64,000 nucleotides of DNA. It comes from Chrysoperla carnea (lineage: Eukaryota > Arthropoda > Insecta > Neuroptera > Chrysopidae). Of this stretch, positions 2,011 to 29,016 are shown one piece after another; the stretch's first letter is position 1; each line of letters opens with the position of its first letter. The notes beneath the pieces were generated by a model. That model was not told where the DNA came from. It saw only the letters and a program-made list of their open reading frames with translations, and ran no database searches. Location of the stretch: assembly GCF_905475395.1 (NCBI RefSeq), contig NC_058339.1, forward strand, positions 37,705,172 to 37,769,171, in the 5' to 3' direction. The translations under genes and the position numbers were made by a program.

Positions 2011-4933
2011 ATTTTAACATCTTTATTTGTCCTATTCCTTATTGTATCAACTGCAAATTCTGGGTAAGCAATAGTTTAAGCGTAGGTTAAAACTGTACGC
2101 GTTGTCAAATAAAACAATCAATTAATTAAATACTCTTTGAAAGATTCAGTTATTTTTTAAAATAATATTACTAAATTATAAATCGCAAAAGGTCAATGAA
2201 TAATGAAAATTAAATATCATAGAAATAGGCCTCGTTGATTTCCTGGATGCCTTGTGGAAGTTTAAATTGTAAAATTTTTTCTCAAGATAAATGTTAAAAA
2301 TCAAGAAAATAGTAAAATTTTCGGCTTGAATATTAACATAAAAACTGAATAGTTTATCATAGTTTTTGTCTTTCTATACGCGCAATTTTCTATACGGTAT
2401 TTAGAAAAGAAATGTAACAGCGCAACGATTTAAGGGCGTTATATTTTCTTACTGTATCTAATCATATGTAGTCTGATTTTGATGGGCAAATTGTTTAAAA
2501 AATGATGACAATCACCGAAACTTCTTCTTGAGGTATTTCGATATCAAAAAATGAAAATGATCCAATAATTTTCAAATTTTATTTATCAACTAATCATTTT
2601 TTTATACGCCTTTTGTGGAAAATTCATATCAATACCTCCGCATTTTTATTTCTTTATACGACATCATGCATTGCAACCAAAAAAATTCTTAAAAAAATTG
2701 TATGCATCTGTTTTAGCTAGTGTTACCGCGAAACGAGACGAGACAAGCGAGAAGAGAAAGTCTTTTGTATTGTTTCGACTTCTTTCTATCATCTTGTTTC
2801 ATGCAGAAATAATTATAATTAATTTTCAATCGGTTTATGCGCTTAAAAAGAATTCAAAATAAAAAACAAGGCCTTAATAAGACCAAAATTAATCAGTTCC
2901 TGATTCAATAAATTTTGATTGGAAAATCTTTTGTCTGCATCTCGAATACTCTTCCTCTATTTATCTTCAGCATTCAAGGGAATCTCGTAAAAACCATTTA
3001 GGCCCCATTGTCATTTGTTCAAAAGTTAGTTGAATCTATAGAAAATAGAAAGTTAGTTTTCTTTTTTGTAAAATTCAGTTGCATTTTAATAATTTCACCA
3101 AAAAACAAAAAACTAAAGTCAATGACTTTGAAATGCATAAAAAATAATACTAAAAGTTTTTTTTTTGACCACCTAGTGAAATTTTGTGGTAAAATTGATT
3201 CAAGTTTTTTTTTATCATTTCTCCGAAAAAACTAACTAAAGTCAATAGCACTTTATGATTGACTTGAATCGTGTGTTATCATTTAGGTATTTTTTAGTTC
3301 CAACTTTTTTTATATTTAAATTTTATTTTAATGGAAAGTGTGTTTAGACTTATAGAGTAGATTACTGATAGGTACTACAGTAAAAGTATTCAATTATTTA
3401 AAAAATATATCTTGTATTTACTTTTTGTTTTGATATGCGTGAGAAATCAGCCGTGAACTTGAGAATTTGATATGGTTTTTTATTTTTATTTTATAGTATT
3501 TACTATGTCAAAAGTATAAAATAACACAATAAATAAGAGATCTATTCACATTGATAAAGATTTTAAAGATTATGAGAACCGTGGCCAGAATGGCACACTA
3601 AAGGAAACATCAATTTTTAAACAAAACTAATTCTCTTAACGAAAAACATTTTCAACGTCTTTAAAACAACTAAAGATTATTAATTTATTTAAATAAAAAA
3701 AAATTTAACCAGCAACTTGCTCAAAAATAGGTTCAACTGTGAAAATTGGTTTCAAATGGTCGATAACCCGTTTTGTAAAGTGCCGGAAAAAATCATTATT
3801 GCATTTGCTATTAAATTATTTTGCTATTTTAAACTTTTATATTCATTAATTTCGAATGTGGTGAGCAATTAAGTTTTCTAAACACCGCAAAAAAGCATTG
3901 CAATTTTTCTCAAATAAATAATGTCTGACGCTCGTCATACTGAGGTTGCGAGTTCTTATTTTTGGTAATCATTGATGAAAATTATCTCTGACACAAACTG
4001 TGGAATTGAAGGTTAAAAAAAAAGTAATAGCCCGTAGTTGAGCGGCCTAAATTTAGATTTACAAATACTTTCATTTTAAGGATAATCCTTAATCAGTAAA
4101 CTCAAGTTGTGAAGTTTTGTATAAGATATGACTACGCATTTGATAATTGTAGGTAGCCATAGGTATGAAAAAACGTAATGGATCCTAATAGAGTGTCTTG
4201 GGGTAGCAAAAACGTAATGGTCCGTTATTACGGGATGAAAATGTTAGATTTTCTAAAATTTTTATTTTATCGGCAATCCTTAGTTAGAAAACTCAAGTTT
4301 TGAAGTTTTATATAAGTTAAAATTATGAATACACATTTGATATTTGTTAGGCTCCTCACCAATTCTCGACTTCCTTGGTGGTATACTAAACAGGCCAGAA
4401 AACCATTACACCAAGTATTTTTAGCAGTTCCTGGTTATGTTTCTGCAGGCTGGAAAGAAATGATAAAGCTATTCAAATTTCGTTGACTTAATTGTAGCTT
4501 GAGGTACATAATGGGCCGTGATAGAGTGCCTTAGGTTGGCAAAATAGTAATGGACTTTGATCAAAAAGGTTAGATTAGAATTTCAAAACAATATTGCTAT
4601 AAATAACAAAAATATGAGGATGATCTTAAATGCGACACATTGTATAAGCTATGAGTGTACATTTGATATTTGTTAGGCTCCTCACCCATTCTCGTCTCGC
4701 TTGGTAGTAGACTAAACAGGCTAGAAATCCATTACACCAAGCTTTTTTTAGCAGTTCCTGGTTATGTTTCTGCAGGTTAGTTAAGACATGTCAAAGTTAT
4801 TTAAATTTCATTAATTTTTGTTTCAGTCATAAAAAAGTTGTTATCCATATACCATATACAGTAAAAAATGTAAAACACACTCATACCATTTATAAAACTA
4901 TACATCATAAAAAAGGCGATGGCAAACATGAGC

Positions 4934-4966
<33 letters not shown>

Positions 4967-5058
4967 TCGATGATCATCATGGACATAAATCATCATCGAC
5001 ATCAAGTCATAAAGAGAAATTAACAAGTAGTCATCCCTATCATAGACGTAGACGATAA
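2011..5058 (+). CDS. Secreted poly-His protein, 5' partial (His-rich paralogue 1)
   Basis: Two coding exons are visible. Exon 2011-2063 follows TTTGTTTCAG and ends at donor GTAAGC. It encodes ILTSLFVLFLIVSTANSG, a clear signal-peptide core. Exon 4827-5058 follows TTTTTGTTTCAG and ends at TAA. The junction is phase 2 (GG|T, Gly). The mature part opens with HKKVVIHIPYTVKN and then KHTHTIYKTIHHKK, the core shared with the genes at 15-18 kb and 24-29 kb. A run of eleven His follows, then a Ser/Lys/His stretch ending in four Arg. The visible product is about 94 residues. The intron is 2.76 kb and full of repeats. The first coding exon (phase 0, probably Met plus a few residues, as in paralogue 3) is missing. 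A secreted structural or metal-binding role is inferred from composition only. A possible AATAAA lies near 5370. Confidence 0.8.
4334..4776 (+). repeat. Two direct copies of a ~116-bp unit inside the intron
   Basis: Positions 4334-4449 and 4660-4776 are close copies, about 326 bp apart. They share TTGATATTTGTTAGGCTCC near the start and GCAGTTCCTGGTTATG near the end. The sequence before each copy (from about 4065, 4255 and 4600) also contains related stretches such as AACTCAAGTTNTGAAGTTTT, so this looks like a degenerate tandem array of about three units. It lies in the last intron of the poly-His gene and ends about 50 bases before the splice acceptor. Confidence 0.75.
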
Positions 5059-5790
5059 GAATTGAAATACAGAGTTTAACGTTTAAATTGGTAAAAACTG
5101 TTTATAGTCTAAGATCCCAATAAGGATCGACCTTTACCCATCTGTATCCTTGCAACGGGTTGCCTAAAAAAATGTTGTCTAGGCTACTTTTAGTGAAAAT
5201 ATCAAGAGTAAAATTTTTTGAAATTTTTCACTAACTTGTATATCTAACGAATTTTGATCTACTCGAAAGTAAAAGCCATAAAGTTAATTCATTGACTCGC
5301 ATATCTAAATAACGATAATTTTATTGCAAATTCGTTGCTATATGGTTGTCCACAAAATATCAGTCAAAAAATAAAGTTTACAAGCTTTCCAAGTTTTGAT
5401 ATTTTTATTAAAAGTTGTCTTGACCATAGATTTTTAAGGCAACCCATTACAGGGATATTTGTAAATATTATACATTTCATATAAAATAACTTTAATTCGG
5501 TAAACAGGTGAGTGAAGGTCGACCTTAATTCGTATCTTATACTATTAGATGAATAGATCATATAATAACGGGGATATAGTAATGGGGTAATTCAATAAAC
5601 GCCAGTCAATAGTATGCAGAACGAAATTTCATGGTTTAAGAAATTTTTCATGTAGTAATTATATTGTGGATTATATTTTGTTCGTTGAATATCAGAAAAC
5701 TTGAAACTATTTATGTTATACATTTATTAGTTCAGACGTTTCGAAATATACATGTTTCTTCTTCAGTTGGTAATAATAAAAATGTATAGT
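5059..5790. other. 3' flank and intergenic DNA
   Basis: This stretch follows the stop codon of the poly-His gene. AATAAA near 5370 could serve as its polyadenylation signal. The sequence at about 5730-5770 (CAGACGTTTCGAAATATACA) resembles the start of the dispersed repeat that follows. No coding region is seen. Confidence 0.4.
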
Positions 5791-5794
5791 TTAA

Positions 5795-6105
5795 TGAAAA
5801 AAAAAAAGATAGTCAGTCAGTGGGGACTGTCGATGGAAGTGAAAACTTAAAACTTTGTAATATCCAGCCTTCGGCCAGACTGGTCGTATATAGCTCTAAT
5901 AAATTCCTAATCACAATACCTGAATAATCATAAATAATACCATAAATAATCATAAATACTATTCAAATAGCTATTCGCATTTCTAGATAAATATGGTGGG
6001 AGCGCAAATAAATATATTTGAATAGGAAGATATAATGTGATATATGATTTATATGCGTTTCCACCATTTATTTCATATTTTTTTATTTTTTGGTTTCGGA
6101 ACCTT
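5795..6105 (+). repeat. Dispersed repeat R-A, copy 1
   Basis: This is similar over about 300 bases to the reverse complement of 34680-34995. Shared landmarks in order are AGATAGTCAGTCA, GGACTGT, CTAGATAAATATGGTGGG, AGCGCAAATAAAT and TTCCACCATTTATTT. The last third is an imperfect palindrome (ATGGTGGGAGCGCA at 5994 against GCGTTTCCACCAT near 6055), so it could fold. It is probably a non-autonomous element of unknown class. Confidence 0.75.
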
Positions 6106-9100
6106 TAAAAACATTTTGTACTGGATCGAATTTTGAATCTCGACCATTTTCGCATCCACTTGAACACAGACTTTGAAGTGTTCAACGTGCCAAAAGAAGT
6201 TTTCACTTCAAAAAATTACTTTATTTTATTGAAATATGATATTAATTCATGCATTTATTGTCAAATTTAGACTGAGGGAAAGAAATTGGAAACGTGTGAA
6301 ATATTAATTTTGTAATATAAATTGTTCCAATTCAATGAGGTTAGAATGAAATATAAGCAAATTTTTACTTGATCCAGACATGTAGTTTTTTGCATTTTGA
6401 ATGAAAAACGGCAATTTCCGGGACATGTTAGAGAATGGAGTTTGAAAAACCTATTTTGGCAATTATTTCATTATTAGATTAAGCGTGTAACTTATATTAC
6501 ATTAAAAAAAAGCAATAAAGAACAGAAAAACGAAATACAAAGTTAAAGAAAAAGCTACAACTTTACATTAAAAAAAATGTACATGAAATTTTGAAAATCA
6601 ACTGTTCGAAACCACTCAGCTATAGAAGCTATTTTTCACGACAATTGGCTACGAAGTAGTATTTTTATTCTTTTCATTATCGCCAATGGTTTTATCACAA
6701 TCGATGCTTATATTTCAAAAAGTGCAAAAAAGTAATTTACAACTTGCAAGGTACAAAAATCCTTTCACATTTGTAAGGTAAAACTTTTCATTGATTGGCC
6801 TTTTTTATGAATGATTCTCATAAAATTATTTTCACAAATTCAAAAAACTTGGTAAGCATTAATAGCGTACCTTCATTACTATACTAACAAATATTTTTTA
6901 CGAATATGTTTAATAAATTCTTTGACAGTGTGTTGTTTGTCAAACGCGTTTGATAACAGTATCGAATTTGCCAAGTGCATCGATCAAAATTTTGATAATG
7001 TATAGACCCATTTATTATATGATCATTTATCCAGGTTTTTCTCATTGATTTGAAACGAGTATGTTGTTTGCCACCGAGCCACAAAAATTTGGTCAAAGGT
7101 TAAAAATTATTTGTACGTGAGAAAAAATTGCTTGAAAGATTGAATTAAATTTCGTAATTATTATAAATATAAAGATAGTATTATGTTCCTGGTTTTATAT
7201 ATGACTAATTTTTCTAATTCTATTTGGCCAACATGTGAATTATGGTGGGATAAATTGATTCGAATAATGTAAACTGATAATATTTTACTAATATCTCCGA
7301 TTTAGCATTGTCTATAGCAATATTTTTATTTGAATCGGAGGTTTTTGTATTTTTTGTAACATTTTCAATGAAAATGTGCCCTAATTTATATTTAAAAATA
7401 CCAAAAATATATAATTTTAAAATTAAGTTGCTTTGTATATTTCGTTAAGTCATTATTGTATATTATGAACAAAATAAAAGATTTAACTTTTGTAAAATAA
7501 ATGAAAAAAAAATTTTTAATTCGTCTTTATAATTTAATTTCCATAAATCATGGCAAGACAATCACAAATGACTTTCTGTGAAAGTTTTTCAAACCAGCCC
7601 CAAAATTTTCATCGGATCGTTCTAACCAAAAGCTATTCCGACCACAAAATTTTTTTAACGAGTAGTTTTCGTTCCTTAGGCGATACACATATAATATAGT
7701 TATGTAGATTAGATAGGAAAATAGCTTTCTGTGAATCATTTTTCAAACCACCCCTAAAATGTCTTTGGATCAGAACGATCCGGCTTGAAAAAGTTTCACA
7801 GAAATCCATTTTCCTATTTAATCGTGCGGGGTTCTTTGATGATAAATTAAAGATAATTGCATCTTCCACTGTTATTTTGCTTCTAATAAGAAATATTTCC
7901 TTTATTTCTCCTTATTTGTAATTTTGACTTAGAATGAAGCCTTCGAGTACAAAAATATATTTTCGTTCAAAAAAGTGGTAGGTGATAGCTTTGAACAGAT
8001 CATTTAGTAAAAATGTGGTAGATTTAATTAGATTGTTGAAATTATTTATAATTAAAATGAAAATATGTTTTTTTTGATTTTTACGGCTTGCATTCGTTTT
8101 TTATGACAATTCGTAAACTTAAAAATTGAAAAAATTCAACAAACAGTTAGATTGTGTTTTTAGATTTTCTGTAGTATTTAAAACTTATGTCTATAGTAAT
8201 TATCGATCCGAAAAATCGATTTTCGTGTGTGATTTTGGAAAATTTATTAGAATCTATGCATTCGTCCATCAAATAACCTGCAGTCTTGGTTTCCAATAAT
8301 ACTGAAAAATGTCCATCCAGGCTTGCACCTATGTTGTCTAGGTTGTTATTGCCTCTGTGGGAAAAATATTCAACAAATGTGTGTTTACGATTAAACTTTA
8401 ACGTTTTATTAATTGTCATTTGCCAGAGACAAAAATGAGATTTCAATTCAAATATAGCATAGAAAAGAGCACATTGACATTTTAAATTCTATATTACCTG
8501 TGCAGTCTGTAAAAGTTAATAATAATTTGTACGCAATTATAATTATGTACATTTATACGCAATTCTATTTATCATTAAACGCAGAAATAATTTTCAATTT
8601 AGAAAAAATTATTACTACATTTTTTATGTTAAAAGTAAACAATAGTAGTTTTGTTATTTGAAGCGTAATATTTATTTAAAATTACCATATGAAATCGTTT
8701 AAAATCATAGACAAATCAATTAAATATTTATTACAATCGTTACCAATCCGATTATGTTATATTTATTTTGATATACCTACTTAGCTAAAAAAAATTTCAA
8801 CAAAAAATTTCCGTATTTATGAGGAAACACGCTTATTATTTAAAATTAGCTAACAGCCGAAAATTAAAAAAAAATTATATATACTTTCACTATAAACTTA
8901 TTACATTTAAAATAAAATCAATAAAATTAGATAATTGATAAAGAAACAAAAAAATATTAATATTAAATTATTGGAAATATTTATTGATTGTTTATTTGTC
9001 AAAATAATGTTGGATTCCGTAGCGCGAAAATTACTATTTTCGCACTCGCACTCTCGTTAAATTATCCGTAAATCGATTTGTACATGCAAATTTGTATAAA

Positions 9101-10890
9101 TGAACTGAATAGAGCTTTTACGTTGTTTAAGCAGTCTGCCCGGTGTATAGTAAAGTTTGTGTCGATTAATATAGTTCGATAAAATTTCGAAGAAACTCTT
9201 TTTCCTTTTGATAAAATTATGGTACCTTTTAATAAATACAATAGGTTGTTAATGATTGTTATAAATAGGGATGTGCTATAACTAAGTCGAGACCCCTGCG
9301 GACACCACGGTTACCTGTCTGCTGAGTGGTGAATATACTTCGAAAAGACTCACTGGAAAGAAGGGTACCTAAAAGTAAGCGATATTTCCTCAATTTTTAA
9401 AGCTACGGCCTCTTGATTTGTGATATGTGAGGTGTACGCATGGAAAGTAGTGAACTTTTTGTCGGAAGATCCCTTAAACATCTCGGCACCATAATTAACT
9501 AAGTCAACTTTGAAGTTAAAAAAGAAATATAAATGTGTGTTTCCGGCCGTTTGAGACAAGCAAAGTTGTTGTCTTAGATTAAAAAACTGAACAATTTTTG
9601 AACTTCAATTTTACCCATTCTAAGTTCGAAAGTTATTCTCGTGCACACGTTCATGCAAAAACTCTAACCTCATGCAAATTTTCTGTCTGAACAAGTTTTA
9701 TTCAAACCAAATTTTTCGTGATTTTTGGGTTTTTACTCGCTTGATTTGTGCAAATTAGTTTGAACAAACCAATTAGTGCAAAATTGCATGACCGTGTAAA
9801 TCAAGCCTTAAATTAATATCCAGCTAAGACGGAAGCGCAGTGAAAAAAAAGCACAATATTTTATAATAATTCTTTTAATTTTTTTTTATATAATTCAAAA
9901 TTGAATATGTCAGTAGTTCCAATCTACTTCATTAATTTTCAGCCCGTATATACTTCAAGAAATAAAAATTTAACGATTTTTTAATCGCAAATTGATTTCA
10001 TCTCTGGCGATGTCAACTATAAAAAATATAAAACCGAAACTCTGACTTGCGGATTTTTATATATTTTATGCAAGACTGTTAAACAAAGTTCTATACAGAT
10101 CGTTATATCTCGCAAGAAAAAAGTAAAAGAAAATCTTTAGAGTAATTTCGTTCAACTAGTGGTATGTATTTCGTATAAATCTGAGTCTCGATGTTTTTGA
10201 GAAGGTCCTCATAATATTATGATTCTGATTTTTCGGGCTACGCCGTAACAGTACACTGTCTTATAAATAAATTGAAAAAAATGATTTAAAAAAATTTAAG
10301 ATATGCTTACCTAACCTTTTTTATAGTGCATTCATTCACTCTTAGTCGAATATTTGTTTTATTTCTAAATAGATTGTTTATATTTTAATTGATCAATCGA
10401 TAATAATTATACAACAAAACCACGAGAAAAGAAATTTTCGGAAAAAAAAACAAACAATCAAAATATCATTATCCAAAATCTTTTAACCTATTTTAGTTAG
10501 TTTTTAAAATAATTTAATATATTGAGTATAAATCGATTTTAATATTGATTTCGATCTAAATTTAATATGTTTTGATAGAAAATATATAAACCACAAAATA
10601 AATTAAAATTCCTACGCACTTTTTACGCAAAGAAAGAATTAATTTATTTAAAAAAAAATTGTGGCTACATAAATTGATTAGCCGTTGGGTAAATCGATTA
10701 ACAAATATAGGTTTCTTCAAAAATGTTATAAACACACTATTTACTGCAATATTACAGAATTTTATGTGGTTTCAGCAGGGAACATTAATTCTGTGAAATT
10801 TTAAAAAAAAGATTTATTATATAGAGATTCCGACCCCTTTTAAATCTACTTCAAACAAAAAAGTAGTAGGTTATAAATTTGACTGTATTT
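6106..10890. other. Non-coding AT-rich stretch
   Basis: There is no gene I can support. Between 7565 and 7830 a short motif recurs: CTTTCTGTGAA followed by TTTTCAAACCA at about 7570 and again near 7728, plus an inverted relative (GGATCAGAACGATCC then TTTCACAGAAA) near 7770-7810. This suggests a decayed repeat. An open frame of 99 codons on the minus strand (8147-8446) is listed separately. The rest appears to be unique AT-rich DNA. Confidence 0.4.
8147..8446 (-). CDS. Unrecognised 99-codon open frame, possibly spurious
   Basis: Starting at ATG 8446, the frame encodes a fairly mixed protein containing HRGNNNLDNIGASLDGHF and KTAGYLMDECIDSN. It is less biased than the other AT-rich chance frames in the window, which is why I list it. 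I recognise no domain and see no signal peptide, splice partner or promoter. It could be a chance frame, one exon of a larger gene, or a relic of a mobile element. Confidence that it is a real gene is low. Confidence 0.12.
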   Translation of the reverse strand: MKSHFCLWQMTINKTLKFNRKHTFVEYFSHRGNNNLDNIGASLDGHFSVLLETKTAGYLMDECIDSNKFSKITHENRFFGSIITIDISFKYYRKSKNTI

Positions 10891-10896
10891 TTTTTA

Positions 10897-11100
10897 AATG
10901 TGTGTTACCTCAGAAATTTCGACTGGATGAAGCTAGTGCTTCCCGTGTGGTCCCATTTCATTTTGGTTCAGTTCTGAAGAGGACGAATAACTCAATATCA
11001 CGCCAACCGATTTCGACGGTTTTTTTTTCGTGACAAATTAGTTAGTGTACTTCAGATTCACTGAAATTCACAAAATAAAAAAAACTTTTAACAGCAATTT
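10897..11100 (+). repeat. Dispersed repeat R-B, copy 1
   Basis: This matches 30186-30470 in the same orientation. Common stretches are CTTCCCGTGTGG/GTTTCCCGTGTGG, CCCATTTCAT, AGAGGACGA, CTCAATATCACG, AACCGATTTCGA and AAACTTTTAACA. The copy here lacks about 70 bases present at 30290-30340. It looks like a non-autonomous repeat of unknown class. Confidence 0.7.
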
Positions 11101-12620
11101 TTTGTAAGCAATGTCATATTAGTATGTATTCAATATACATTATGCTTTTTTAAGTTGATATTTGCTTGGAACTCGAAAAATATCTGTTATCGATAAAAAA
11201 GCTTGAAAAAAAAATATTGGATGTTTAGTCGTACTTCTTACTCAGACATTATACTCGACCTAGGTTTTCAAGCTCAATGAAAAATTCACTCTTCTCCATA
11301 ACTGGTAATCGTATAAAGAACACTTTATGCTATTGATTAAAAAAATTACAAAAAATTAAAAATTTTTTTGGTTGAAACATAAAAACATGACCAATACTAA
11401 TTGATTAGAACAGTATGAAAAGATAAGCGATAGTACTTCTGAAGCCTTATGATGAGGAAAAAAAAATTCCGAAAGTTGAGAGTTAGCTCAAGATTTGCTT
11501 GATTAAATGGCAAATGAAAAATTTTATGAATGAAATATAGTTTACTAGGTTTGATGATATAAAGCAATTAATTATAAGTGCAAATTAGTGAAATTTAAAT
11601 CAATTGAATTTAATAAATCATATCAATTAAAATATTATAAAATTTTAAATAAATTATACATTAAAAGTGTACTACATGTTATTTTTATAGATAAATAATT
11701 TCATATTATTATTTTCTATAATTGCATCTAATTTTTCATATAATTTTTCGCATTTGATTTCAAGATTAAAATCTTTTCATTTTTTTTTTCTAAGCATATT
11801 GAAAGTTTTTACTACTATTGTTGTTGGTCAGCATAACAAGATAGAAGCATTTTATTTTATAAGCTATATTTTATGGTATGCTACTTTTTTCCATACCAAA
11901 ATTGTTCGTGCAAATAATCGTAAATATAAATTATATTATTTATAATTTAAGTTTTATTCACAATAAATTTATAAATATGTTATTTGTTTCTGTATAGTTG
12001 AGAAATGTTTTTATAATATTGTCTTATTAATTTAAAATATAACAATATTGAACATACTATGATGGTCCAGGCTCTATTATAGCCCACGTTTAAAAAAAAG
12101 TATTTAGTGACTAGTACTTTTCACATTTCATGGGCATGCGTAAAGTGGTTCCAAAAAGCTTTAATAGTTAAAATTATTTTGTTATGAGGAGTACATTTTC
12201 ATATCAAAACGTTTGGACATTGACTGAAAGGGAGACTTTTTTACCAGTCATTTATTACAATTGAGTAAGGTTGCATTTATTCCTTATATTTCGGTAGTGC
12301 GCACATGTCGATCTTATATAATAATTCTGCGAATGGGCTAGGCCTGAATGTATCAACCTCACCTAAAGAGACCTTATGTTTTGCAAGTGTGCACATTTTT
12401 GCCTAATATTTTTATAGTGCGTACAGATTTATGTCACTTCTGCACATTGATTGACCTTTAATACTACAACTGCGCATATATAGGCTTCACATTACCATTT
12501 CCGGAAGGTAGCGATGAAAAAAGCGTTACATGAAAGACATCACACCTTTCTAGCATGTTAAGAAGAAAAGGAATGGTTTTGGTCGATTTTTTCCCTATTT
12601 ACAAGGAATTATGTGTATCA
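11101..12620. other. Non-coding AT-rich stretch
   Basis: No gene, RNA or clear repeat was found. The segment 12060-12560 is a little richer in GC than its surroundings and has several short variants of GTGCGCACA/GTGTGCACA, but they do not form a repeat I can define. Confidence 0.35.
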
Positions 12621-12624
12621 AAAA

Positions 12625-14986: not shown

Positions 14987-17900
14987 ATGAAAATTATTTC
15001 AAATAATAATTTAATAGTTTTTGTGTTGTGTATTGTGTTTGACCTTGTGGCATCTGGTGGAGGCGGCGGTGGGAAAAATGAAAAGTAAGGCAAGCTTTTT
15101 GAAGTGTTTGTATTTAGTGATGGGAAACTTTTAATTTTTGTGCAAATGTTTACTGGATTATAACTAGTTTGGAAAACAAAGCTCATTATTCAATTTTTAA
15201 TTCAAATGAACGGCTAGGATTTTTTGCCAGATAAGGAATTGGGAATTGTTTTTATATAAAGTAGCCCATTATCGTAGAAAAAGTTTCTTCATTGGAAATA
15301 AATTGAAACGATTAAGAATGTACGAGAAGCAAGGCAATTTTAAATTAAAAGCTTGTTTTTTATATGAAGTTGGGTCAAATCTAAATCAATGCTGAAAATT
15401 TTAAATAAATGAATGACTTCAAAAGTAGTATTTAACATTGGTTTTATGGTAAAACGGTAGATGGATGATATGTTTTCATAGATTTCTTAAAACCTTAATA
15501 AATTATTGAAAAAAACAGGTTGTTCCCGACTAATTATGTATGAGCACGGTAGCACAAATTAAAAAAATATACATTTTCAATTTTGATGGTGAAATATGTT
15601 TTAACATGACAATATTAGACGAAAAGTAAGAATAAAATTTTTCAATATCTGGAGTAATTTTAAAAAAATCGAAAATTTTGTTTAATTATTTTGCTTTCGA
15701 TATTTCGAAAACCAAGGCAGATATCGAAAAATTTTATTTCTATTTTTCGTCTACATTCATGAAGTTATAACAAAATTCATCATTAAAATTGAAAATAAGG
15801 TGCAAATAATTTCAACCACAAGTCTAAACTGGCCTTGGCGCTCGTACTACCATAAAAATTCTAAAAACTTAATCGCTGTAGCTGATTATATGATGCTTTA
15901 CTGAGATTTATCATAATGAGAAAGTTTTCCATAGGATGGCGTTATTTGACGGCTTATCGTCATCACCCTACTAGGAAACTCTAGTTTTATCTATATGAAA
16001 TTAGTTTTATCTGTATTTTTAGCTGTATGAAACAGGATTGAATATCGTAGTTGCTACAATTTAGGTTGCCTATAATGAATTTTAATTATGTTTCAGGGTT
16101 CATTTCAAAATTCAAGTACCAAAATTTGTAAATAAACACACTCATACAAAAACTATTTACATCCATGTTCATGAGCCACCAAAGACACAAAAACATGAGC
16201 ATCACCATGCTCACGAACATGACCATCATCACGATACTCATCACGGTCATGGTCACGATGACCATGGTGGAGGTCATGGCCATGAACATTCCTATCACCA
16301 TTCATTTCATCATTCGCATCATGACGATCATGGATCACATCATCATACCAGTCATCATGGTGGTCATGACCGAAGTTCAACTGGTGGGCATCATCACAAG
16401 CCACCTGCACCAAAGCCTCCACCACCGAAGCCACATCACCATCATCCTGCACCACCTCCAGCACATAAACCAAAAGGTCATCCTCATCATGGGCATGGGG
16501 GAGGAGGAGATGGACATCATCATCATGCACCGCCAGTACACAAACCAAAGAAACCACCAGCGAAACATCCACCACCACCTCATCATCATCCACATCATCC
16601 TCATCATGCCCATCATCCAAAGCCTAAACCACATCCAAAACATCCAAAGCCAATACCAAAACCACCGGTACATAAGCATCATCCTATTAAACCTGTACAT
16701 GAGCATCATCCGCATGAAGCTCCACCTCCTAAGTATCCTAAAAAAGGTGGACATGAACACGTTGTACATAATCAAAAATATACTGAGCATTATACTGAGT
16801 ATAACAATGATGATTACGAACATAGTCCACAATACTATAAACAAATTGAGGAAGAAGCTCCATATTATGAAGCGGTTGAAGAACTGGAAGATCATGATGA
16901 TACCGAACATGATGTTGGTACACATGCTGGTTATATCAATCCAGATTATAGCGTGAAGTAAGTATCGCTTAAAGACTCGTTAATCCTTGTTTGGTTCAAA
17001 TATTTTTACTTTACTCTCAATTATCGGTTTTTCTTCGCTTTTCTTTTCGTGAAGTCGATGTCTTCTTCACATTTCAAGTTTCTTTTTTTAAAATTTCGTT
17101 CTTTTTTATATTTTTGATAAAATCTCAATTTCAAGCAAAGTTTGGCGATGGCCTTTCTTGTGGCAATGGCAGGTTCAATATCGTGGGCTAGCGGGGGGGC
17201 AAGAGTGACTGACAAGTTTAAGCTGCTCAGGCTCATCATTTTTGGAATCAACTCAATAGCTAAGAGTAGCTCTGCTCACTTCTGCGGTGTGAAAGTTGCG
17301 TCTGAACTCAACTCGGGTGGTAAGCTGGCATATTTACCAGTGCTGTAAGATAGGGCACGACTCATCACGGTAGCCATGATGGAAGACATACTAGAAGTTT
17401 TAGAAGTTTTGGCACGCTAACTTGGCGTATCCCAGTGGCCTTAGCTCTTTTAGAGGGTCTGTCTGACCTTGGGGGTTTTTTTATATTAAAAAATTTCATT
17501 AGTAAATTTTCACCGTTTGATTTCTTTTCTAGCAATCATCATGAAGAAGAGCCAACAGTTACTTACCCGGAAGAAACCCAACAAAAAACTTATCAAAATA
17601 ACTACTACCAAAACAATTATGAAAATACAATATTACCAGAAAATGAATCTGCCCTTTTACAAAATCCATACATCCATGCGTTCATCCATGGTAACACAGA
17701 TATGAGTAACCAACAACCAATCAGTCACCAACAATACAACCAACAACCGAATAATGTGTACTTACACCAAGCGCCCTCAACTGATGAAACTTATCTACAA
17801 AATGATGTCACTTACGATTCATACGGGAACGTTATCTCCGATCAGAATAAGAAAAATTTCTATAATAATTTTCCACCTCTGAATAATATACCATTCAAAC

Positions 17901-18145
17901 CCACTCCCACATTTTCAATACCCAATCCTTCACCACCGGTGACTAATGAAGAATTATATCGATCAGAAAATAATCGATACACTAATGCGGATAAACAAAT
18001 CGAGCAAGATTTTCATATTGACGCTGAATCCTTCAATCATTCAATTATTTATGACACACCTCCGCCTAGAACAACTAGTAAACCAAAAAGACATCGAAAT
18101 CCATCGAGTACACGCCATGGAAGTCGTTACAAACATAATAAATGA
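14987..18145 (+). CDS. Secreted His/Pro-rich and Asn/Gln-rich protein, 523 aa (paralogue 2)
   Basis: Three exons join in frame: 14987-15084, 16097-16957 and 17533-18145. Borders are AA|GTAAGG, TTTCAG|G, AA|GTAAGT and TTCTAG|C, and both introns are phase 2. Residues 1 to about 23 are a signal peptide (hydrophobic LIVFVLCIVFDLVAS), followed by a Gly run. Residues 33-58 hold the family core (VHFKIQVPKFVNKHTHTK, then IYIHVH). Residues 60-270 are dominated by His with Gly, Asp and, later, Pro and Lys (PPAPKPPPPKP type). Residues 270-320 are acidic and Tyr-rich. The last 204 residues, mostly exon 3, are rich in Asn, Gln, Tyr and Pro and end in a basic Lys/Arg/His tail. There is no enzymatic domain. 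I infer an extracellular structural or metal-binding role. AATAAA at 18426 could be the polyadenylation signal. Open frames on the other strand are shadows of the CAT repeats. Confidence 0.85.
15360..15555 (+). repeat. Dispersed repeat R-D in intron 1, copy 1
   Basis: This is similar to 25610-25845. Shared stretches include AAATAAATGAATGAC (AAATAAATAAATGAC in the other copy), TATTTAACATTGGTT, AAAACGGTAGAT, GATATGTTTTCATAGATTTCT and TATGAGCACGGTAG. Both copies lie in introns of His-rich paralogues but in opposite orientation relative to the genes, so they look like separate insertions rather than inherited intron sequence. Confidence 0.75.
15573..15796. repeat. Foldback repeat in intron 1, two 78-bp arms
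   Basis: Positions 15573-15650 are the imperfect reverse complement of 15719-15796, with a 68-base loop. Both arms contain TAGACGAAAA and AATAAAATTTTTC in the same order when compared. It would fold into a long hairpin in the pre-mRNA of the large His-rich gene. Confidence 0.75.
17140..17490. other. GC-rich insert in intron 2, unknown origin
   Basis: About 350 bases are clearly richer in G and C than anything around them, starting near GGCGATGGCCTTTCTTGTGG and ending near GGGTCTGTCTGACCTTGGGG. On the minus strand one frame runs without stops for about 46 codons (about 17394-17257) and contains SRALSYSTGKYASLPPELSS; other frames have stops. I do not recognise it. It could be part of a retroposed gene or a mobile element from a source with different base composition. 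Confidence 0.4.
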
Positions 18146-18431: not shown

Positions 18432-18436
18432 TTGAT

Positions 18437-18962: not shown

Positions 18963-19152
18963 ACTCGAAAAATTTCAGCATCGGCATGTGGTCTATAATA
19001 TTGTTGTATATTTTATATAATACCCTCCAAAAAAAAAAAACACAAAAATTGAGCTACGAACATTCATTGTATGTAAATATTGTACATAAAACAAAGACCA
19101 AATTTTTGCTTTGATTTACTTCACATCTTATAAGATTATAGAGGGCCTAGAG

Positions 19153-19434: not shown

Positions 19435-19442
19435 ACCTAGAC

Positions 19443-21752
19443 TCTAGACTAAAAAATTGCGGATGAGGTATTCTAAAAAAAAAAGGAAACTAGAAACAAT
19501 TTACCAATGAAGATTACTTGACATTTTAATGAAAACGAGCCTACCTATTAGAGATGACATATTAATAGTACTCTTTAAATATAGGACTGACTACTCTATA
19601 AAATGACTTGACTTTTTAGAACATAATTTGACAAAATTCAATCATAGATTTCTTATTCTATAAAAAAAATAAGATATTTTTATGTATCAGTCTATTCCAT
19701 TTTCTTTTTTCGAATTTAATAAATTGATAAAATTGTTATCTATATATATTGTATATTCTATATAGTGGCTTCCGAAAATAACAAATCACACGAAAATATT
19801 TTTAAAAACGATAAATATTGTTTTTAAAATAAAACAAATTAAAAAATATTTTTTTTGAAAAAATTGAGATTCATTTGGAATGTGGTATTAAAAATTCCAT
19901 TTAACTGAACAATTTATAAGAACATGACATAAAAATTATAATAATTTTTATTTTTATGTTTTTTTTTTCTTTTTTGTAATAATTATTTATGTTAAAATGT
20001 TAATGGATTTTTATTTATTTTTGTTTTGTTAATTACGTATTTGTAATTATTATATATATATTTTTTTGTTTTGAAAAAGATTAAAAAACTTCCAAAAAAA
20101 TGTTTAGTTATTTTTAGTTTATTTCTATTATTTTCTTTTTATTATAGTGAAAGTAATATTTTAAATAATTTTACCATATATATCAATTATTTATAAATTA
20201 GTGCATTTCAACAATTTAAAATGTGTCTGATCTATTAATTGCAAACAGCGAAATTCGAATTAATTTAAAGAATTTGTCTTTCAATTAAATATTCTTATCT
20301 AGTTTTCATAGATTTCAAAGAAGAAGGTAGGTATAAGTATTTTATGTGGTCATAATTGGGTTTAAATGATATTACACAAAACTTGGAGATATTATTAATT
20401 GTAATTTTTTTGATAATCATTGAAGCTTTCATTAATTTTTCCTTTTTTGATAATCATTGCGGCAAAGGAGACACATATGTTATATAGTGCAACTATTCGC
20501 ACCGTGCGCGAGTTTCGTTTCCATGACAACGATACACTACATGTATGATGCATGTATAATTGTATGGGTTGCATTTATGATTTACATTGAAAATTTAATA
20601 TTATTGTCTCACATATTTAAATAAATAATTATGATAATTTACATTTGAAAAATAATATTTGTGCAATTTGATTTCTTATTTTCACAATTTTTAATGCATT
20701 AAGTTTAATTAATTAGTGTTTTTCAATAATTTTAATATGACAGTTTCTATAACATTAACATGTAAAGAATTGCAAATTAGTCATAACAGCCTCCTTTATC
20801 GCCAAAATTTTTCACTGGAAGCACTAGCATTGATTTTATTGTCCCTACCATGACTACGCACACAACGAATACTGAATACGCAACAACAACATAAAATCGG
20901 TGATAATCGGCTTACAGCATTTTTACTTTTGAAAATACCATTCAATCAAATCATATTCAAGAGTAGGAACATACAAGCTTTTCTTACGTGAAACAAGTAG
21001 TTATGTGATGTTGTTTACAAGATAACAATCCCTATGATAAACAGAATGGGTTTGGTAATTTCCGTAATTTTGAATGAAGATTGAATTTCCTCCGACAAGT
21101 AAGTAAATTAAGTCACATGCTTAGCCAAACAAAGGTGAGAAAAAAACAAGACTGTGGTGGTCAGCGGTTACTTGAGTTTTTTTTTTATACATTAAGTTTA
21201 ACCCTGATTTGAATATTTTATAACAAAAATCAAAGTATCTACTGATTAATTGCTTCTAAAATCAAAAATTTTAAACATTTTCCTAACATTTTTAGAATAT
21301 TGGATTAACCGAACTTCAAATTCCAAGTATCATTAAAATCAAATCCAATAAATTATCCCTTATTAAACATATCATTTTAAAAGAATCTACATAGAAATGT
21401 TGTTAAAAATAAATAAAAAGAACATAAAAAATATATATAATAATAAAAAAAAATATTTATTTTATATCAATTAAAAAAATATAATATAAAAAGTATTTTG
21501 TTTCATTCTCATCAACAACAAACTAAAAATATTTAATTAATAACAAAAATCAAAACTTAATTTTAATACAATCAAAAAAACAACAATATATTAGGTAGTA
21601 GGTAAAACAGTTCAATGATATATCAACATTAATAAAAGAAAATCTATAACGCATATAATATAAAACTCACAACTCATTCGATGAGATAGATTAGAAAATA
21701 AGTTCAATATTTATATATAAACAAATCAATATTAATTTATTTATGGAAACAG
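19443..21752. other. Non-coding AT-rich stretch
   Basis: No gene is seen. A 20-base AT-rich string at 18422-18441 recurs exactly at 19714-19733, bracketing the foldback and the MITE. Elsewhere the sequence consists of long A/T runs with occasional more complex stretches (20460-20560, 20790-21180) that I cannot assign. Confidence 0.35.
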
Positions 21753-21856
21753 TAGCGTAGCCAGAAAAATTATTCGTAAAATCTTTCACATACATTCTGA
21801 AATGTTTATTCATTATGTTAGTATTTTCAAATACTTTCTGGCTACACGCTTTGATT
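21753..21856. mobile_element. Possible very short hAT-like MITE
   Basis: AGTAGCGTAGCCAGAAA at about 21755 faces TTTCTGGCTACACGCT at about 21835, an imperfect inverted pair about 100 bases across. The start is similar to the CAGTGGCGTAGC-type ends seen in many insect DNA elements. No target duplication is evident, so this is tentative. Confidence 0.35.
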
Positions 21857-24178
21857 ATTTTTATAAAAATTGTGTATCAACAGAAATACGACACAAAAAT
21901 TGATTCTTTAATCAATAATAGTTTTTGTTTAAAAAAATGTTGTAGATGAATTTATTTAAATGTAATTTTAAAAAAATCTGGGCAATACGAGATTTGAACA
22001 AAACTGAATGAATAAAAACTATCAAATTTATAAAAATTCAAGAAAACTATATTTTTTGATAGGCAACTTGTATGACGTACTTGTTAAATTATCACGTATA
22101 GTTGTGTATCAAAATGATGCTTTGTTGATTTTACAGTTAGGTAGGTTTTATAAAGATTTTCTTTTTCCCGAACTAAATCAATGCTCTTTTACAAAACGAC
22201 GTTGTCACATAAGTAAATTTTGCTGGAAGTAAGCGATCAATCAATGCACAAGGCAATGAAGTTAGTAAGATCGTTCGATTGACATTTTTTAGCAAAATTA
22301 GAAATCCAGGCTATTGTCATGCAGAGTTATCTTGAATTTTCCGCCAGTTTTTTTTCATTTTGTATTTTTGAAGATATAAGTGAGAGAAAGGCCGAATAAA
22401 ATCTGAAATAATCCAATTCATTCAGCCAGCTAGCATTTCATAGGAACAATTTTTGCCAATCTAAAGTATAAGTTCATTTCCTGTGATTTTTTAGGGTATT
22501 TTGCCCCGATTAAAAATAATAATACCCAAACATCTAATTGAACAAGGATAAAATAATGGTATAGAAACATTTTTTTATAGATAACAATATAAAAACTATT
22601 ACTCTCTCATATATGCTAGCAAGCATGTTTTTTATTTTTCGATTGCGTGTAAGTGGCTAAGGTAGATGTTGTTGATATGTTCTTTAATCACAGGTTCACA
22701 TGTTTTTTTTTTAAAGAGTAGGTCTTCCACATAAGGAATGCAGCCAGTTTGTGTTGTTATTCATAGTCAATAGTAATTTCTTTCTAACCTATTAAATAAG
22801 TGTATAATCAGAACGTAAACGAAATGAAATACCTTCATCCATCCACATATATTCATTTTTGAAATGCATTCAAGCAATCATCTCTTCTCTCAATCTATCT
22901 CTCTTTAAAATTAACATTCTATTGATAAACTTGTTACATCATACATGTTCGATTGTCTTCTATTTTGATGGATTGATCATCGGTAATCAGACGCTTTGAT
23001 TTTTAAACAAAAATAACATTTTATTCCTTCAAAAAAATATTGTAGTATTGTCGATTTATTCATTTTCTTTTAAAAAGGCAGGAGGGCATAATTTGGCTGA
23101 AAGCCGGTTTATATTGGAGAATACTAAACAGAGATGTGCCTCTTTCTATAAAGATAAATAAAGATCCAACAAAAAACAAAATTTTTCGGACACGGCCAAT
23201 TTTTAAGACGATTTTAGTAGTCAATATTAATATCATTAACGACTGCTTAAAATAAATTTCCTATTTTCGAATAATTTTGTTCTGACGAGTCAAATAACGA
23301 GAATTGTGGCATTCAAAATTTAGAAAACCTACTCAAACCAATCTTACTTCGATTTGCAGTGTTCTGTAGTAATAAGAATCTATTCATTTTAATTGGAAAA
23401 TACTATAAAGAAGTTTGCCGGCTTTTTTATTCAAGATAAACTTTTTTGAAAAGAATATTAAATCAAATTTTGGATAATTCAGATACAATTATAAAGAATT
23501 TTTTTTTAAAATTAATTTTCTGGTTTAAATTAATTTTAAGCGTAACATAATTTCTTTATCCTTTCAAACAAAATCCTAATCACATCAATTTTTGTGAATA
23601 AACCGATATTTCTGTTGATAATCAATTGTTATGTATTTACGAATGTTTTCTTTTAAAAGTCCAGTTTCTCAGTTAATGAAATTCAATCAGTTTCTCTCAA
23701 ATATCGACTTAGAGATAAAACTGACTTTAATTTCAGCTTAAGAATATCTAACCGATTCTTTTAAACTACCAAAGACAACTATACTTTACAGTTTTTCGAA
23801 AGCCAGTTTTTCTGAGGTGTTTAAATGTGTACTCTATACGATTAATCCACTTTTGCACTGATAAACTGGAGTTTTTTTTAAGGCTTGGTTTCTCCAACTT
23901 TGATTAATTTTGATTGTTATTGAATTTATCTTCTAATCAAATATCATTTGAACTCTAGACTAGGAATTCTAATCAATGATTATCAAGTTAATCGAAGTTG
24001 GTATGTATAACAAGGTCTTTTTTAAAGTTGAATCAGTCTGAAATATTAAGCTAATGATTAAGTTTTGGAAGTAGGTAATCTAACTAAAGAAGTGACTAAG
24101 AAAAGAAAATGGCAGTATTACTTTGTAAGAGGTACACGTTTGATTTTACAACCCCCGTTTATAGGGGTGAAATTATTT
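21857..24178. other. Intergenic DNA downstream of the Gly-rich gene
   Basis: No supported coding region. It lies beyond the 3' end of the minus-strand Gly/His-rich gene. I found no AATAAA on the minus strand close to its stop; a TATAAA variant (minus strand) occurs near 24160. The remaining sequence is AT-rich without clear repeats. Confidence 0.35.
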
Positions 24179-27100
24179 TTAGTGGTAATGTCCACCACTG
24201 CTATGTTCGTCACCACCTCCATAACCACCATCGCCACCACCATGACCGCCACTATATTCAATGTGGCTGCTGCTTCCACCTCCGTAGCTACCGCCTCCAT
24301 ATCCGTGATCATCACCGCCTCCATAACCGCCATGACCACCACCGCCGCCACCTCCATGTGATACTTCAACACCACTATCAATACCTCCACTGTATCCAAT
24401 TACTTTGTAATATTCATGATCACCGCCACCACCATGACCACCACCGCCACCGCCTCCATGACCACCTACTTTTTTATAGATTGTATGTGTGTGATGGATG
24501 TGATGGATTTTGTATGGTACATGAATGATAATTTTTTTGTGGGACCTGGAAAGTAGGAAAAAAAGTTATTACGATATACAATAAGACCGTGGCTAGAGTT
24601 AGAGCCCTGGCTTATCTTGCGCTGCAGATCTTTTGTTTCTCCCTAAAAATAGTTCGTTAAACAAAATTTGTTGAGGCTAGAGGTAACATATAGAAACAAA
24701 AATAAGGTCACATTTTTTGTGCTAGGACTGCTTCCAGGTTGGAGTCCCAACAATCCTAAACATTCTATACTTGACTCTCTGTAAGCTATATAGGTGCAAA
24801 CAACAAGAAATGGTTAGTAAACTACGTGTCCATTCCCATCATCCCAGAAATAGTAAACTTAAATATTCCTATAAGTTGAAAGTTATAACATCTTTTTTGT
24901 GCCAAATATACAAATTATTATCTAAATTTGAACGTAAAGAAAGCAAATCGTATATTACGAAGTACAGATGGATCCAAAAAAAATTGTAGCTTGTCCATAC
25001 ATTCTTGTCATCCTAAAATCCACTTAAAACTTTATGTTTTCTGACCATCCAAACTTGTTACTTTCTAATTTATCTCAAATCTTAAATGAGACGATTGAAT
25101 TATATCAAAAAGCCTCAGATAAAAATCGTTTTATATGACTTTCAAGTAATCAGTACCTATCAGTATAAAATGAAAGGTAAATCAAAATTGATTTACAATT
25201 CAAATAAAAACGTATCATTGACAAATTTGATATAAAAAATAAATGAATAAATAATAAAGTACTTTCATTTAATAAGATTTAATAACAGTTCCCTTTTTTT
25301 GTAAAAAAAAAACTTCAAATTATGTATTTAGCTTTGCCATTGTGAAAGTATTAAATTTTATTTTTAAATTTTTGTTTGTTAATTGCTTTATTAAAGCGTA
25401 TTATGAATTTTGTTTATTTTTTTGGAAGTTTTATTTTTGACATTCATTTTTGGTGAAACTTACCCGCCTCCACCTCCAGCTGATACGCATAATATTCCAA
25501 AGACGCAAACAGCAGCGGCTGACAACAACTGAAAATAAATTTGAAAAAATACATTAACTTTAAAAATTGATTAAAGATTGCTGGAAATGTTATCGGATTT
25601 TTTTTACATATAAAGTTGGACTAAATAATCAATTTTAAAAATTTTAGGAAGTGTTGCCCGATTATTTAAATAAATAAATGACTTATTAAATAGCATATTT
25701 AACATTGGTTATATAGGAAAACGGTAGATATATGATATGTTTTCATAGATTTCTCCAAAACTAGTCGGTAGAAATTAAAAAAAACAAAAACTATTTCAAG
25801 TAAACTTAAGTACCCGACTAATTAAAGACGTATGAGCACGGTAGTGGAAACACAACTTATAAAATAAGTTAAGCTAGTAAAAATATGTCATTAATTCAAA
25901 TTTAATGCATTATGTGTATGATCTCAAAAATAAGTGACAAAACCGCTTTGATTTTCAATGGACATTCAAATTACAAAAAATGATTTATTTTGTTATTTTT
26001 GGTTAATTGAAATTTATGTATGAACACAAAGACCCTTTTTATGTTATATAATCTGTATTTCTAGGTGTTATAATTCCAAAATAGGAGGTTTTAAAGACCA
26101 TTATGTTTTTATTTTATTATTGTTATAAATTATAAAAAAAAAAATACAACTTAAAATCTAATAAAGCCCACCCTTAATTAAAAAGAAAAAAAAATTATTA
26201 AAAAAAATATCCACTCCCATATGATGTAAAATAAAAATTTTGTTCAATAAAAATTAATAATTAAAATTGTTTTTACACATATTTTTGAATACTTTCGTCT
26301 GAGGGTATATAACGTTAATATGACGTATTTGAACATTTATTCTGAATATGAAAAGTTTGTTTTCTGATCCAAGTTTTAATGTAACACGGTGGTAAAATAA
26401 ATACCACAGGCCATTTGATAAAACTTTATGCAATTTCCATAACATCTTCACCATCGTAGTATTAAACAAGTGAAAACAAACAATTGACTGAGTTAATTGT
26501 TGAAAAACCATGCATAGGCAGTGTTGATTACCCTTATCACATTACACATATACTCTTTTCCCATATAATACATACTATACAATTTACGCCAAACTTGCGC
26601 CCTCACGGGTAAACAGTGATGTTTACGAAAAAATGTTTCAAACAGAAGTTGTTTATTTTTTTACAAGGGATATTTTTTACATTTATAATTTTGTTATATC
26701 TATAACGGTTTACAAGATGGGTCCTATGGACCCAAGACCCAATTGACCTATGTTGCTCATTTACGAACTTGATCTCACTATTTACGTCCTGAGTACGCTG
26801 TAAAAATTTTAACTTGATATCTTTTTTCGTTTTTGAGTTATCGTGTTATTTGAGTTACCTATTTTGAATAATTAGGTGATTTTATAAACATCTATACCAA
26901 AATTTTGTTCGTAGCATCAATATTTTTAAGCGTTACAAACTTGCGACTAAACTTAGTATACCTTGCATATTACATATATGCATGGAATAAAAACTCTAGA
27001 GCAACGGAGTTCCATCGCTATTGTCATATTTCCGCATCATTATATATTTCTTATTATAAAATTTATTGAATTAGGATTTTTGTGTTTCAATGTTTATGAA

Positions 27101-29016
27101 AACATGAAATAACCCGAACTCAATTCATATACAAATTTTGAACAACTCCATTAAGAAAAAGTGGTTCTAAAAACTTGAAAAAACACGAAAAATATAAAAT
27201 TTTTTGGAATAAACAAGTGTGAAAGCAGAATGGAAAGTTGACTCCCCCAAAAGGCACCTCCTTGACATTAAGCCCACATATATACCGATTTTCAAACTTT
27301 TAGGTTAATTTTAGGCAACTTTACAGAAATTTAAAGCCATAAAAGCATCGAAAAACGCAGTTGATTGTATGAGGAAATTTGACTAAAAATTTTATTGGCA
27401 AAGAAAGTTTATTCATGAAAAATAAAATTTAGCAATTTCTTAGGAAAGTTTTTTCGGCGCAAATATAAAAATATCGATTTATTACATACTCCATAAAAGA
27501 AACTGCTTGGGATATCAAGTAGTAATGAGATTTTTAATTTACGTTTATTAAAAATAGCATAAGTCCAGAAAAATAAGATGGCAAATCAATTTGAAAATTA
27601 ATTTTTCCTTTATATGCTCAGAACACGAAAGTTACGTGAGTGCGTACTCATGAAGATTTTATTAAAAGCAGTACTTGTTCAACATTTTTAAGTGTATACC
27701 AATTTGCTTCTTTGGTTATTAAATGAAATTAATTGACGCTATAACATTTTATTAAAATATTTTTGTTATTAATTTCATATTAAAAAAAAATTAATAATAC
27801 CTTAAAAGTGTTAAATTAATTTTGGTAAAAAAAATTTAATCGATAATTTTAATATCGATTGAATTCCGTACTGTGACGATTCTATGCTATGGATTTAGTA
27901 TTGTATCCGTAGAATTGTATTAGTAGATAACTTTCCTTCTTATCTTTTTATTATTCGAAAACGTAAGCTCTAGGTATCCCAACGAAACTAAATAGTTTTA
28001 TTGATAAGGTTCAGTGGCGCAGCGAGGGGAGGCAAGGGAGTTCAGCATACCCCGGGTGCTACTCACAAAGGGCGCCAAATGGTCCACAAAACAAAAAATT
28101 GCTGAATAATTTTTATTTTTATTATAATTGATTTCTGGAAAATATATTTAAAATTTAATGCCAGTGTAATCTAACAAATGTTAATTCGTTAATAAATATA
28201 AAAGGAACTCTAAAAGTCTAAATCAAACTGAAATAATATGTTCATAATAGAAATGGCATGTTCATAATCTTTTCTACTGGCAGCGCTGACTCGACCTGTT
28301 TTCTATCAACACTTCCTTATGGCATCTACAGCTCCGTAAAGAAGCAATAGAAACGCAATTGAAAATTTGTCCCATTTGTCCCGTTTAGGGCAATTGATAA
28401 TTTGTACCATAGTTACAGCCCATAATTACAAAAGCTACTTTCTCAATGGCACCATTACTCAGTGGTTTTGGACTCTTTCTGAAGTACGCCTTTACACATT
28501 TTAATTTTTATCGAAAAATCATAATTCGAAACTTGCAAAATAAAAGGACTAGTAAGAGCCGTTTCATATTAATTAAAATTTCACATAAATGAAATGGATA
28601 ATTTGTTTCAGTTAACTTTGCTACAATTTTTTGGAATTAAATAGCTTTGGTCATTCTGAACATAATTTCCCTTGAAACGGAATCACAGAAAAATTAACAT
28701 AACCGTATTAGTTGCCAATTTTCGGAAAATTTTGTTTATCAGGACATTTGTTTATAGGTACAACGCCACTTCTACATTTGATTTACGTGAACTTCCGTTA
28801 AATTCATTGCACACTTTTGATTAACGAAATACAGTAAACAAAAAACACATATCGAGTAAAAATCCACACGTAATCCGTTGTTATATCCGCCTAATACGTA
28901 ATCCAAACCGTATATGGTATTAAACACTAAATCGTTACACTTTTTCCGGTAAAAATTGTTTTTGGTCAAAATAATGTAGTATCAAAACTCACCACAATAT
29001 TTTTTGTTGTTGCCAT
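24179..29016 (-). CDS. Secreted Gly/His-rich protein, 151 aa (paralogue 3)
   Basis: Three minus-strand exons join in frame: 29016-28993 (MATTKNIV, phase 0, donor GTGAGT), 25528-25464 (acceptor TTTTCAG, donor GTAAGT) and 24545-24179 (acceptor CTTTCCAG, stop TAA). The second junction is phase 2 (GG|G). Residues 1-25 form a signal peptide (LLSAAAVCVFGILCVSA). A Gly run follows, then the family core at 31-55 (SHKKIIIHVPYKIHHIHHTH, then TIYKK). Residues 57-151 are Gly-rich with His, Tyr, Asp and Ser (GGHGGG, GGYGGG) and end in GHYH. Introns are 3.46 kb and 0.92 kb. Composition resembles glycine-rich cuticle or eggshell-type proteins; that role is inferred. The plus-strand frames over 24109-24528 are shadows. 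This is the best-defined gene of the family here and shows what the missing first exon of the 2-kb gene should look like. Confidence 0.9.
25610..25845 (+). repeat. Dispersed repeat R-D in intron 2, copy 2
   Basis: Second copy of the repeat at 15360-15555, with landmarks TATTTAACATTGGTT, AAAACGGTAGAT, GATATGTTTTCATAGATTTCT and TATGAGCACGGTAG. It lies in the 3.46-kb first intron, about 80 bases upstream (in gene sense) of the signal-peptide exon, and runs antisense to the gene. Confidence 0.75.
26465..26989 (+). repeat. Microsatellite-bearing element R-M, copy A
   Basis: First of eight copies in the window of a roughly 0.5-kb dispersed element. Full copies start AACAAGTGAAAAC, carry AATTGACTGAGTTAATTG and ATACCATGCAT near the start, then CCTCACGGGTAAACAGTG, GATGTTTACGAAAAAATG, CTAACGGTTTACAAG, ACCCAAGACCCAATTGACC and TTTTACGTCCTGAG, and end in ATGCATGGTATA. 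This copy lacks the internal GACGGACA microsatellite, reading from TATCGTG to TATTTGAG instead, and ends CATGGAATA. No open frame, so non-autonomous. Confidence 0.85.
26990..28992. other. Rest of the long first intron of the Gly-rich gene
   Basis: The text around 28015-28080 (CAGTGGCGCAGCGAGGGGAGG) is a GC-rich island that resembles the end of an insect hAT-type element, but I could not find the partner end. An open frame at 28772-28969 (minus) looks like chance. The rest is AT-rich. Confidence 0.35.

Follow-up and report, generated by a model that had tools for sequence, protein, structure and literature searches.

Low-complexity structural proteins evolve so fast that kinship among them is usually lost. 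Among the histidine-rich proteins of insect cuticle, to which BmorCPR152 from silkmoth scales belongs, histidine contents run from 6 to 45%, and films have been made from a cuticle protein of 45% histidine with laccase and N-acetyldopamine (NADA) or N-beta-alanyl-dopamine (NBAD), according to the cited part of PMC8062583. The families of cuticle proteins, including the CPG, CPH and CPLCX groups, are listed in the cited part of PMC12426002. Here we analyse a 64,000-nucleotide stretch of the genome of the lacewing Chrysoperla carnea (C3:37705172-37769171, on contig NC_058339.1; hereafter the window), in which three predicted genes, A, B and C, together with a fourth, D, beyond its right end, form a small cluster encoding leader-bearing proteins rich in histidine and glycine. 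The cluster is real, local and ordinary in kind.

The predicted products resemble proteins of the BmorCPR152 type (PMC8062583, cited part) in their leader, as predicted here, in their histidine clusters and in their suitability for cross-linking by laccase and quinones, and the histidine content of all four falls inside the published range. They differ in the R&R chitin-binding consensus of CPR cuticular proteins (PF00379), which is not matched by the tested exons of A-D. The intron that interrupts CPR genes after the first few leader codons is present in A, C and D but not in B, and it also occurs in E, a neighbouring gene outside the family; this phase-0 leader intron of A, C and D is a layout reported for cuticle-protein genes. 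With the CPG, CPH and CPLCX groups the products share a leader and a low-complexity tail, with glycine repeats in C and D, whereas A-D have no AAP[AVL] motif and carry, after the leader, a core that is short and conserved and of a kind not described for these groups in the cited part of PMC12426002. Glycine-rich repeats as in CPG proteins, scored here as GGxG, fit C and D but not A.

Results

Open frames and GT-AG junctions run throughout the models of A, B and C (Table 1), and each encodes a hydrophobic leader followed by a phase-2 intron, a short core and a low-complexity tail. The codons at the phase-2 junction are GG/T in A, AA/G in B and GG/G in C. The core consists of hydrophobic residues alternating with histidine or lysine, then a proline, then a stretch of histidine and threonine. 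All splice sites of A to E were taken from the DNA, and the models are predictions. An earlier, sequence-only reading of the window had described these three genes with their leaders, phase-2 introns, cores and junction codons, and all of these are present; its start of A at position 2011 does not stand, a probable first coding exon upstream having been missed. Once that exon is added, A and C are seen to share a second intron, of phase 0 and within the leader (MEMKNV/ILTS..., MATTKNIV/LLSA...). Gene B has no such intron, its leader being a single exon, and it alone of the three carries an extra phase-2 intron (16958-17532).

Pairs of cores were compared by alignment score with 20,000 shuffles, and the first 12 residues were compared in a second test. 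The A-C score of 101 was reached by none of the 20,000 shuffles. These two cores are identical at 14 of 23 residues, and at 6 of the 14 the synonymous codon differs, which fits selection on the protein. For B and D the score was reached by 52 of 20,000 shuffles; when only the first 12 residues were taken, 3 of 20,000 shuffles reached it. The A-D and C-D scores were reached by 213 and 4,776 shuffles (2,165 and 3,574 for the first 12 residues). In tblastn searches of a 264-kb region that includes the window, two unrelated repeat places (23.5 bits each) outscored B (21.6 bits) with A as the query, and with C as the query the core of B was not among the 14 best matches. From these ranks and the shuffle counts, B is not joinable to A and C by sequence alone. 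A higher A-B score obtained with longer queries (35 bits) was rejected, as it included a shared histidine run with composition correction off. The best non-self match of B in the same region is VHIRVHVPEIIKESHHHKEIIQYEHH at 75.7 kb (23.1 bits, E 0.033), which is the core of gene D. Gene D also has the phase-0 leader intron and the phase-2 intron of A and C; D was selected by the likeness of its core to that of B before its introns were seen, and so the intron pair is an independent agreement.

That B is no paralogue, its core being like those of A and C only as one basic, His/Thr-rich segment behind a leader is like another, and that many secreted genes here share the phase-2 layout, is in our view unlikely, at perhaps one chance in a few. 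It would account for the shuffle counts of the pairs A-B (547 of 20,000, or 428 with slightly different ends) and B-C (1,352, or 2,569 with slightly different ends), for their first 12 residues (6,699 and 11,315), for the single-exon leader of B, and for a genome search with B that returned none of A, C or D at E 10, with two candidates scored. It also gains from E, which has the layout with no such core. It leaves unexplained the B-D likeness, the confinement of A-D to 76 kb, and a core-blind scan of the 264 kb (11 sites) that brought up no other His-rich coding exon save part of the tail of B. Judged from the sequences, A and C are well supported as paralogues by local duplication and B and D are probable members of the family; the A-B and B-C similarity, taken alone, is only suggestive, and the four cores would fall into A with C and B with D, the two pairs being weakly linked.

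The earlier proposal of common descent by local duplication is thereby upheld for A and C, where no shuffle reached the score and the best non-self genome match lies 20 kb off; for B it depends on the likeness to D, the junction and the location. The family extends beyond the three genes, D being a probable fourth member. The earlier argument from the same intron place and phase to common descent is weaker than was claimed, for E has the layout with no His/Gly core. Gene E surfaced when leader exons were sought across the 264 kb, which gave 14 rows; its start, MESWLRTM, was read by eye and its donor, GTTCGT, is unusual. Either the layout predates the His/Gly family or many secreted genes of the lacewing have it, and either way the same intron alone is no proof of descent for B.

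The specificity of the cores was gauged on both strands of the 264 kb, where 525 phase-2 acceptor-like sites open a frame of at least 30 amino acids. A pattern of hydrophobic-x-hydrophobic-x-hydrophobic-P near the start was found at 7 of the 525: the four genes A-D and three sites outside the family, at 66662, 106158 and 143194. Since A-D had been chosen by their cores, the figure serves as a background rate and does not test the family independently. Eleven of the 525 sites are His-rich in their first 50 residues. Four are the core exons of A-D, one (16352) lies in the tail of B, five (24165, 24288, 76972, 76804 and 76447) are antisense to C or D, and one (13552) lies elsewhere; no further His-rich coding exon was recognised within the 264 kb.

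The genome searched comprises 559,487,470 bases in 337 contigs. Protein searches at this scale score few first-look candidates (five for A, two for B), and distant members can be missed. With A the search returned A itself, C as the best non-self match (E 0.11) and C3:14844869-14844994 (E 9.5); with B it returned B itself and C4:44015990-44016097 (E 0.94). These weak matches, at C3:14.84 Mb and C4:44.02 Mb, are perhaps due to composition. The search with C returned only itself at E 0.001, the one with D found no place at E 10 besides the two exons of that gene, and the pairs B-A, B-D and A-D were not returned at E 10 in the searches with A, B and D. Genome-wide, HTHT[I/V][Y/F] had 150 matches against 143 in a reversed control and is uninformative. 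The pattern [VI][VI]IH[VI]PY had 17 against 16; two are A and C, and none of the 15 others has a His-rich core-like frame. One of these matches has an HIHTHT stretch that lies past a stop. VH[IF]..xVP had 16 against 5, two of them B and D; 6 of the remaining 14 were translated for 20 to 30 residues, none of them His/Gly-rich, and several share VHFRMSVP or VHFRILVP, resembling repeat copies; the excess of this pattern over its control is thus accounted for only in part. By these patterns and the protein searches, no further proven member was found genome-wide. No Pfam family was matched at E up to 1 by exon 3 of A, exons 2 and 3 of B or exon 3 of C, or at E up to 0.1 by exon 3 of D, and no NCBIfam match was obtained for the exons of A, B and C. 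The core of C had no PDB match, and of 589 stretches of viral contigs that matched its seed none was confirmed. Words from the core peptides had no match in the searched literature.

Composition was calculated for predicted mature proteins, with the leader cleavage sites placed by eye. In the order A, B, C, D, histidine makes up 31.2%, 18.0%, 14.3% and 11.2%, glycine 5%, 6%, 42% and 48%, and alanine 0, 3.2, 0 and 1.8%; cysteine is 0 in all four. Adjacent histidine pairs (HH) number 12, 28, 2 and 5, and GGxG motifs 0, 6, 18 and 60. Acidic residues outnumber lysine plus arginine in B, C and D, and A is net positive. The earlier reading proposed a rapid replacement of the tails; those of C and D are alike in kind, with two GGGHGG blocks in C and 15 overlapping GGGHGGG blocks in D, the latter interrupted by VTIVEEHS-like segments.

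Table 1. Predicted exons and segments of genes A to E, in window coordinates
Gene	Feature	Coordinates	Strand	Remarks
A	whole	1671-5058	+	3 predicted exons, 100 amino acids
A	probable exon 1, MEMKNV, first leader part	1671-1688	+	by eye; phase-0 donor GTGTGT
A	exon 2, remaining leader	2011-2063	+	phase-2 donor after GG
A	exon 3, core HKKVVIHIPYTVKNVKHTHTIYK, His/Lys tail, stop	4827-5058	+	
B	whole	14987-18145	+	3 predicted exons, 523 amino acids
B	exon 1, undivided leader plus Gly run	14987-15084	+	phase-2 donor after AA
B	exon 2, core VHFKIQVPKFVNKHTHTKTIY, His/Pro/Lys tail	16097-16957	+	
B	exon 3, Asn/Gln/Tyr-rich C-terminus, stop	17533-18145	+	
C	whole	29016-24179	-	3 predicted exons, 151 amino acids
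C	exon 1, MATTKNIV	28993-29016	-	phase-0 donor
C	exon 2, remaining leader and Gly run	25464-25528	-	phase-2 donor after GG
C	exon 3, core SHKKIIIHVPYKIHHIHHTHTIYK, Gly/His tail, stop	24179-24545	-	
D	whole	73120-77003	+	465 amino acids, predicted; 9 kb past right end of window
D	exon 1, MASKII	73120-73137	+	phase 0
D	leader exon LACTLLSLSSVSRATFGGTE	74695-74756	+	phase-2 donor
D	core VHIRVHVPEIIKESHHHK, Gly-rich tail	core at 75.7 kb	+	
E	whole	about -6.9 to -3.3 kb	+	MESWLRTM, phase-0 intron, ITVLILVVISTISEAFFLNWGTTE, phase-2 intron, Gln/Ser/Pro-rich protein ending LVPCLCPISQDDIEKASEIYSVKNNQ (LVPCLCPI...)

The first donor of A is unusual. Intron 2 of this gene holds two copies of a sequence, 86% identical (4324-4481 and 4650-4809), and three acceptor-like sites (4752, 4755 and 4776) lead into the reading frame of exon 3, which makes a longer alternative exon possible. 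Intron 1 of B contains a self-complementary stretch (15573-15796, 74%) resembling a small inverted-repeat element. A TATA-box argument was rejected, as TATAWA averages 0.92 per 250 bases here.

To the left of the cluster, at -34 to -22 kb, lies a large gene that, from its sequence, we take to be UTP20-like. To the right, frames on the minus strand at 82-98 kb read like 7tm chemosensory receptors of the gustatory type (the one tested matched PF08395, E 4.9e-07), followed by a SpoU methylase at 102.7 kb. Between C and D, at about 44200-45690 on the plus strand, is a predicted gene, probably of at least two exons; two of its frames were tested and neither matched a Pfam family. A tRNA at 43249-43368 on the minus strand (Rfam, 50.1 bits) spans 120 bases against a 71-base model and perhaps bears an intron. 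A dispersed repeat family occupies 26462-26993, 32143-32722, 40642-40923, 47938-49290, 50618-52326 and 61312-61536, with one copy in intron 1 of C, and an open frame at 52486-52758 on the minus strand reads like the DNA-binding region of a transposase of the Tigger/pogo type.

Discussion

We favour, with moderate confidence, the reading that A-D make up a small local family whose products are secreted structural proteins of low complexity, most likely of cuticle, in which the core serves assembly and the histidines are cross-linked. That these are low-complexity matrix proteins is suggested by their composition, the leader intron after the first codons, the absence of cysteine and the clustering of the genes; the open, splice-consistent models with hydrophobic leaders are further points in its favour. 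Spliced in vivo as modelled, the genes would yield proteins that, after cleavage of the leader, are rich in histidine and/or glycine and contain no cysteine, and these would become part of a hardened material outside the cells, most likely the cuticle. Near the N-terminus, the short core may serve in assembly or anchoring, quinones produced by laccase could link the histidines of the tail covalently, and the material might be tuned by tail length and by the ratio of glycine to histidine. In mosquito cuticle, histidines are fewer in the soluble proteins than in the insoluble, and peptides with adjacent histidines are rarely recovered, with no significant overall relation of histidine content to solubility, as reported in the cited part of PMC5395146.

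Several results weigh against this cuticle reading. The likeness of the cores is weak in four of the six pairs (213 to 4,776 of 20,000 shuffles), and the test of the first 12 residues gave no signal for A-D, C-D, A-B and B-C. The motifs AAP[AVL], GYR and YLP were not found in A-D, and the tested exons hold no chitin-binding or other Pfam domain. Gene E shares the leader, phase-0 and phase-2 layout with no His/Gly core. Strand periodicity is weak for the first nine residues of the core (214 to 742 of 5,000 shuffles) and not above shuffles for the whole core (764 to 3,104 of 5,000); on the latter count, the argument that the core as a whole is an amphipathic strand was rejected.

A gland product, whether silk, glue or an oral secretion and whether larval or adult, is an improbable alternative to cuticle that draws on the glycine-rich multiblock tail of D, with VTIVEEHS-like segments between its GGGHGGG blocks, and on the fact that lacewing silk is made in glands (PMC5485732, cited part). 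The egg-stalk silk proteins are one of the known systems close to A-D: ChryC1-3 come from the same species, and ChryC1-3 and MalXB1-2 have a leader and are glycine-rich like C and D. As described in the cited part of PMC5485732, MalXB1-2 are rich in serine, glycine and alanine, ChryC1-2 have a 16-residue period and all ChryC proteins end in a Cys/Asp motif, whereas A-D have 0-3.2% alanine and no cysteine. Egg-stalk silk was rejected on these grounds, which set A-D apart by published description and from this silk only.

The cuticle reading has two further competitors, each of which we hold to be quite improbable. A Gly/His composition like that of A-D is also seen in Nvjp-1, from the jaws of Nereis, and in tenecin 3 of beetles. 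Tenecin 3 and holotricin 3 are Gly/His-rich antifungal peptides of beetles, and an antimicrobial role would suit the small size and Gly/His composition of C and the small, net positive A. It fits poorly with the length of B (523 amino acids) and D (465 amino acids), with the excess of acidic residues over lysine and arginine in B, C and D, and with the absence of Pfam and NCBIfam matches for A-C. A metal-binding matrix, for instance one that hardens mandibles with zinc or copper in the manner of worm-jaw proteins rich in histidine and glycine, would make use of the histidine clusters of B (28 adjacent pairs) and A (12); adjacent histidines are few in C (2) and D (5).

A more speculative and rather improbable possibility concerns the family itself, which may be an unnamed one, perhaps restricted to Neuroptera, whose core exon behind a constant phase-2 intron is a common assembly tag, with tails freely exchanged among His-, Gly- and Pro-rich forms and E a sibling that lost the core. 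If that were true, the locus would be a matched set of parts for one composite material.

The Chrysoperla carnea genome is publicly available and commercial producers supply the insect for biological control (PMC10116181, cited part), so tests by expression and knock-down are within reach. The cluster allows one to ask which of the two, the constant core or the variable tail, sets the properties of the material. The core and intron markers kept within this 76-kb cluster provide a handle for tracing the family across Neuroptera.

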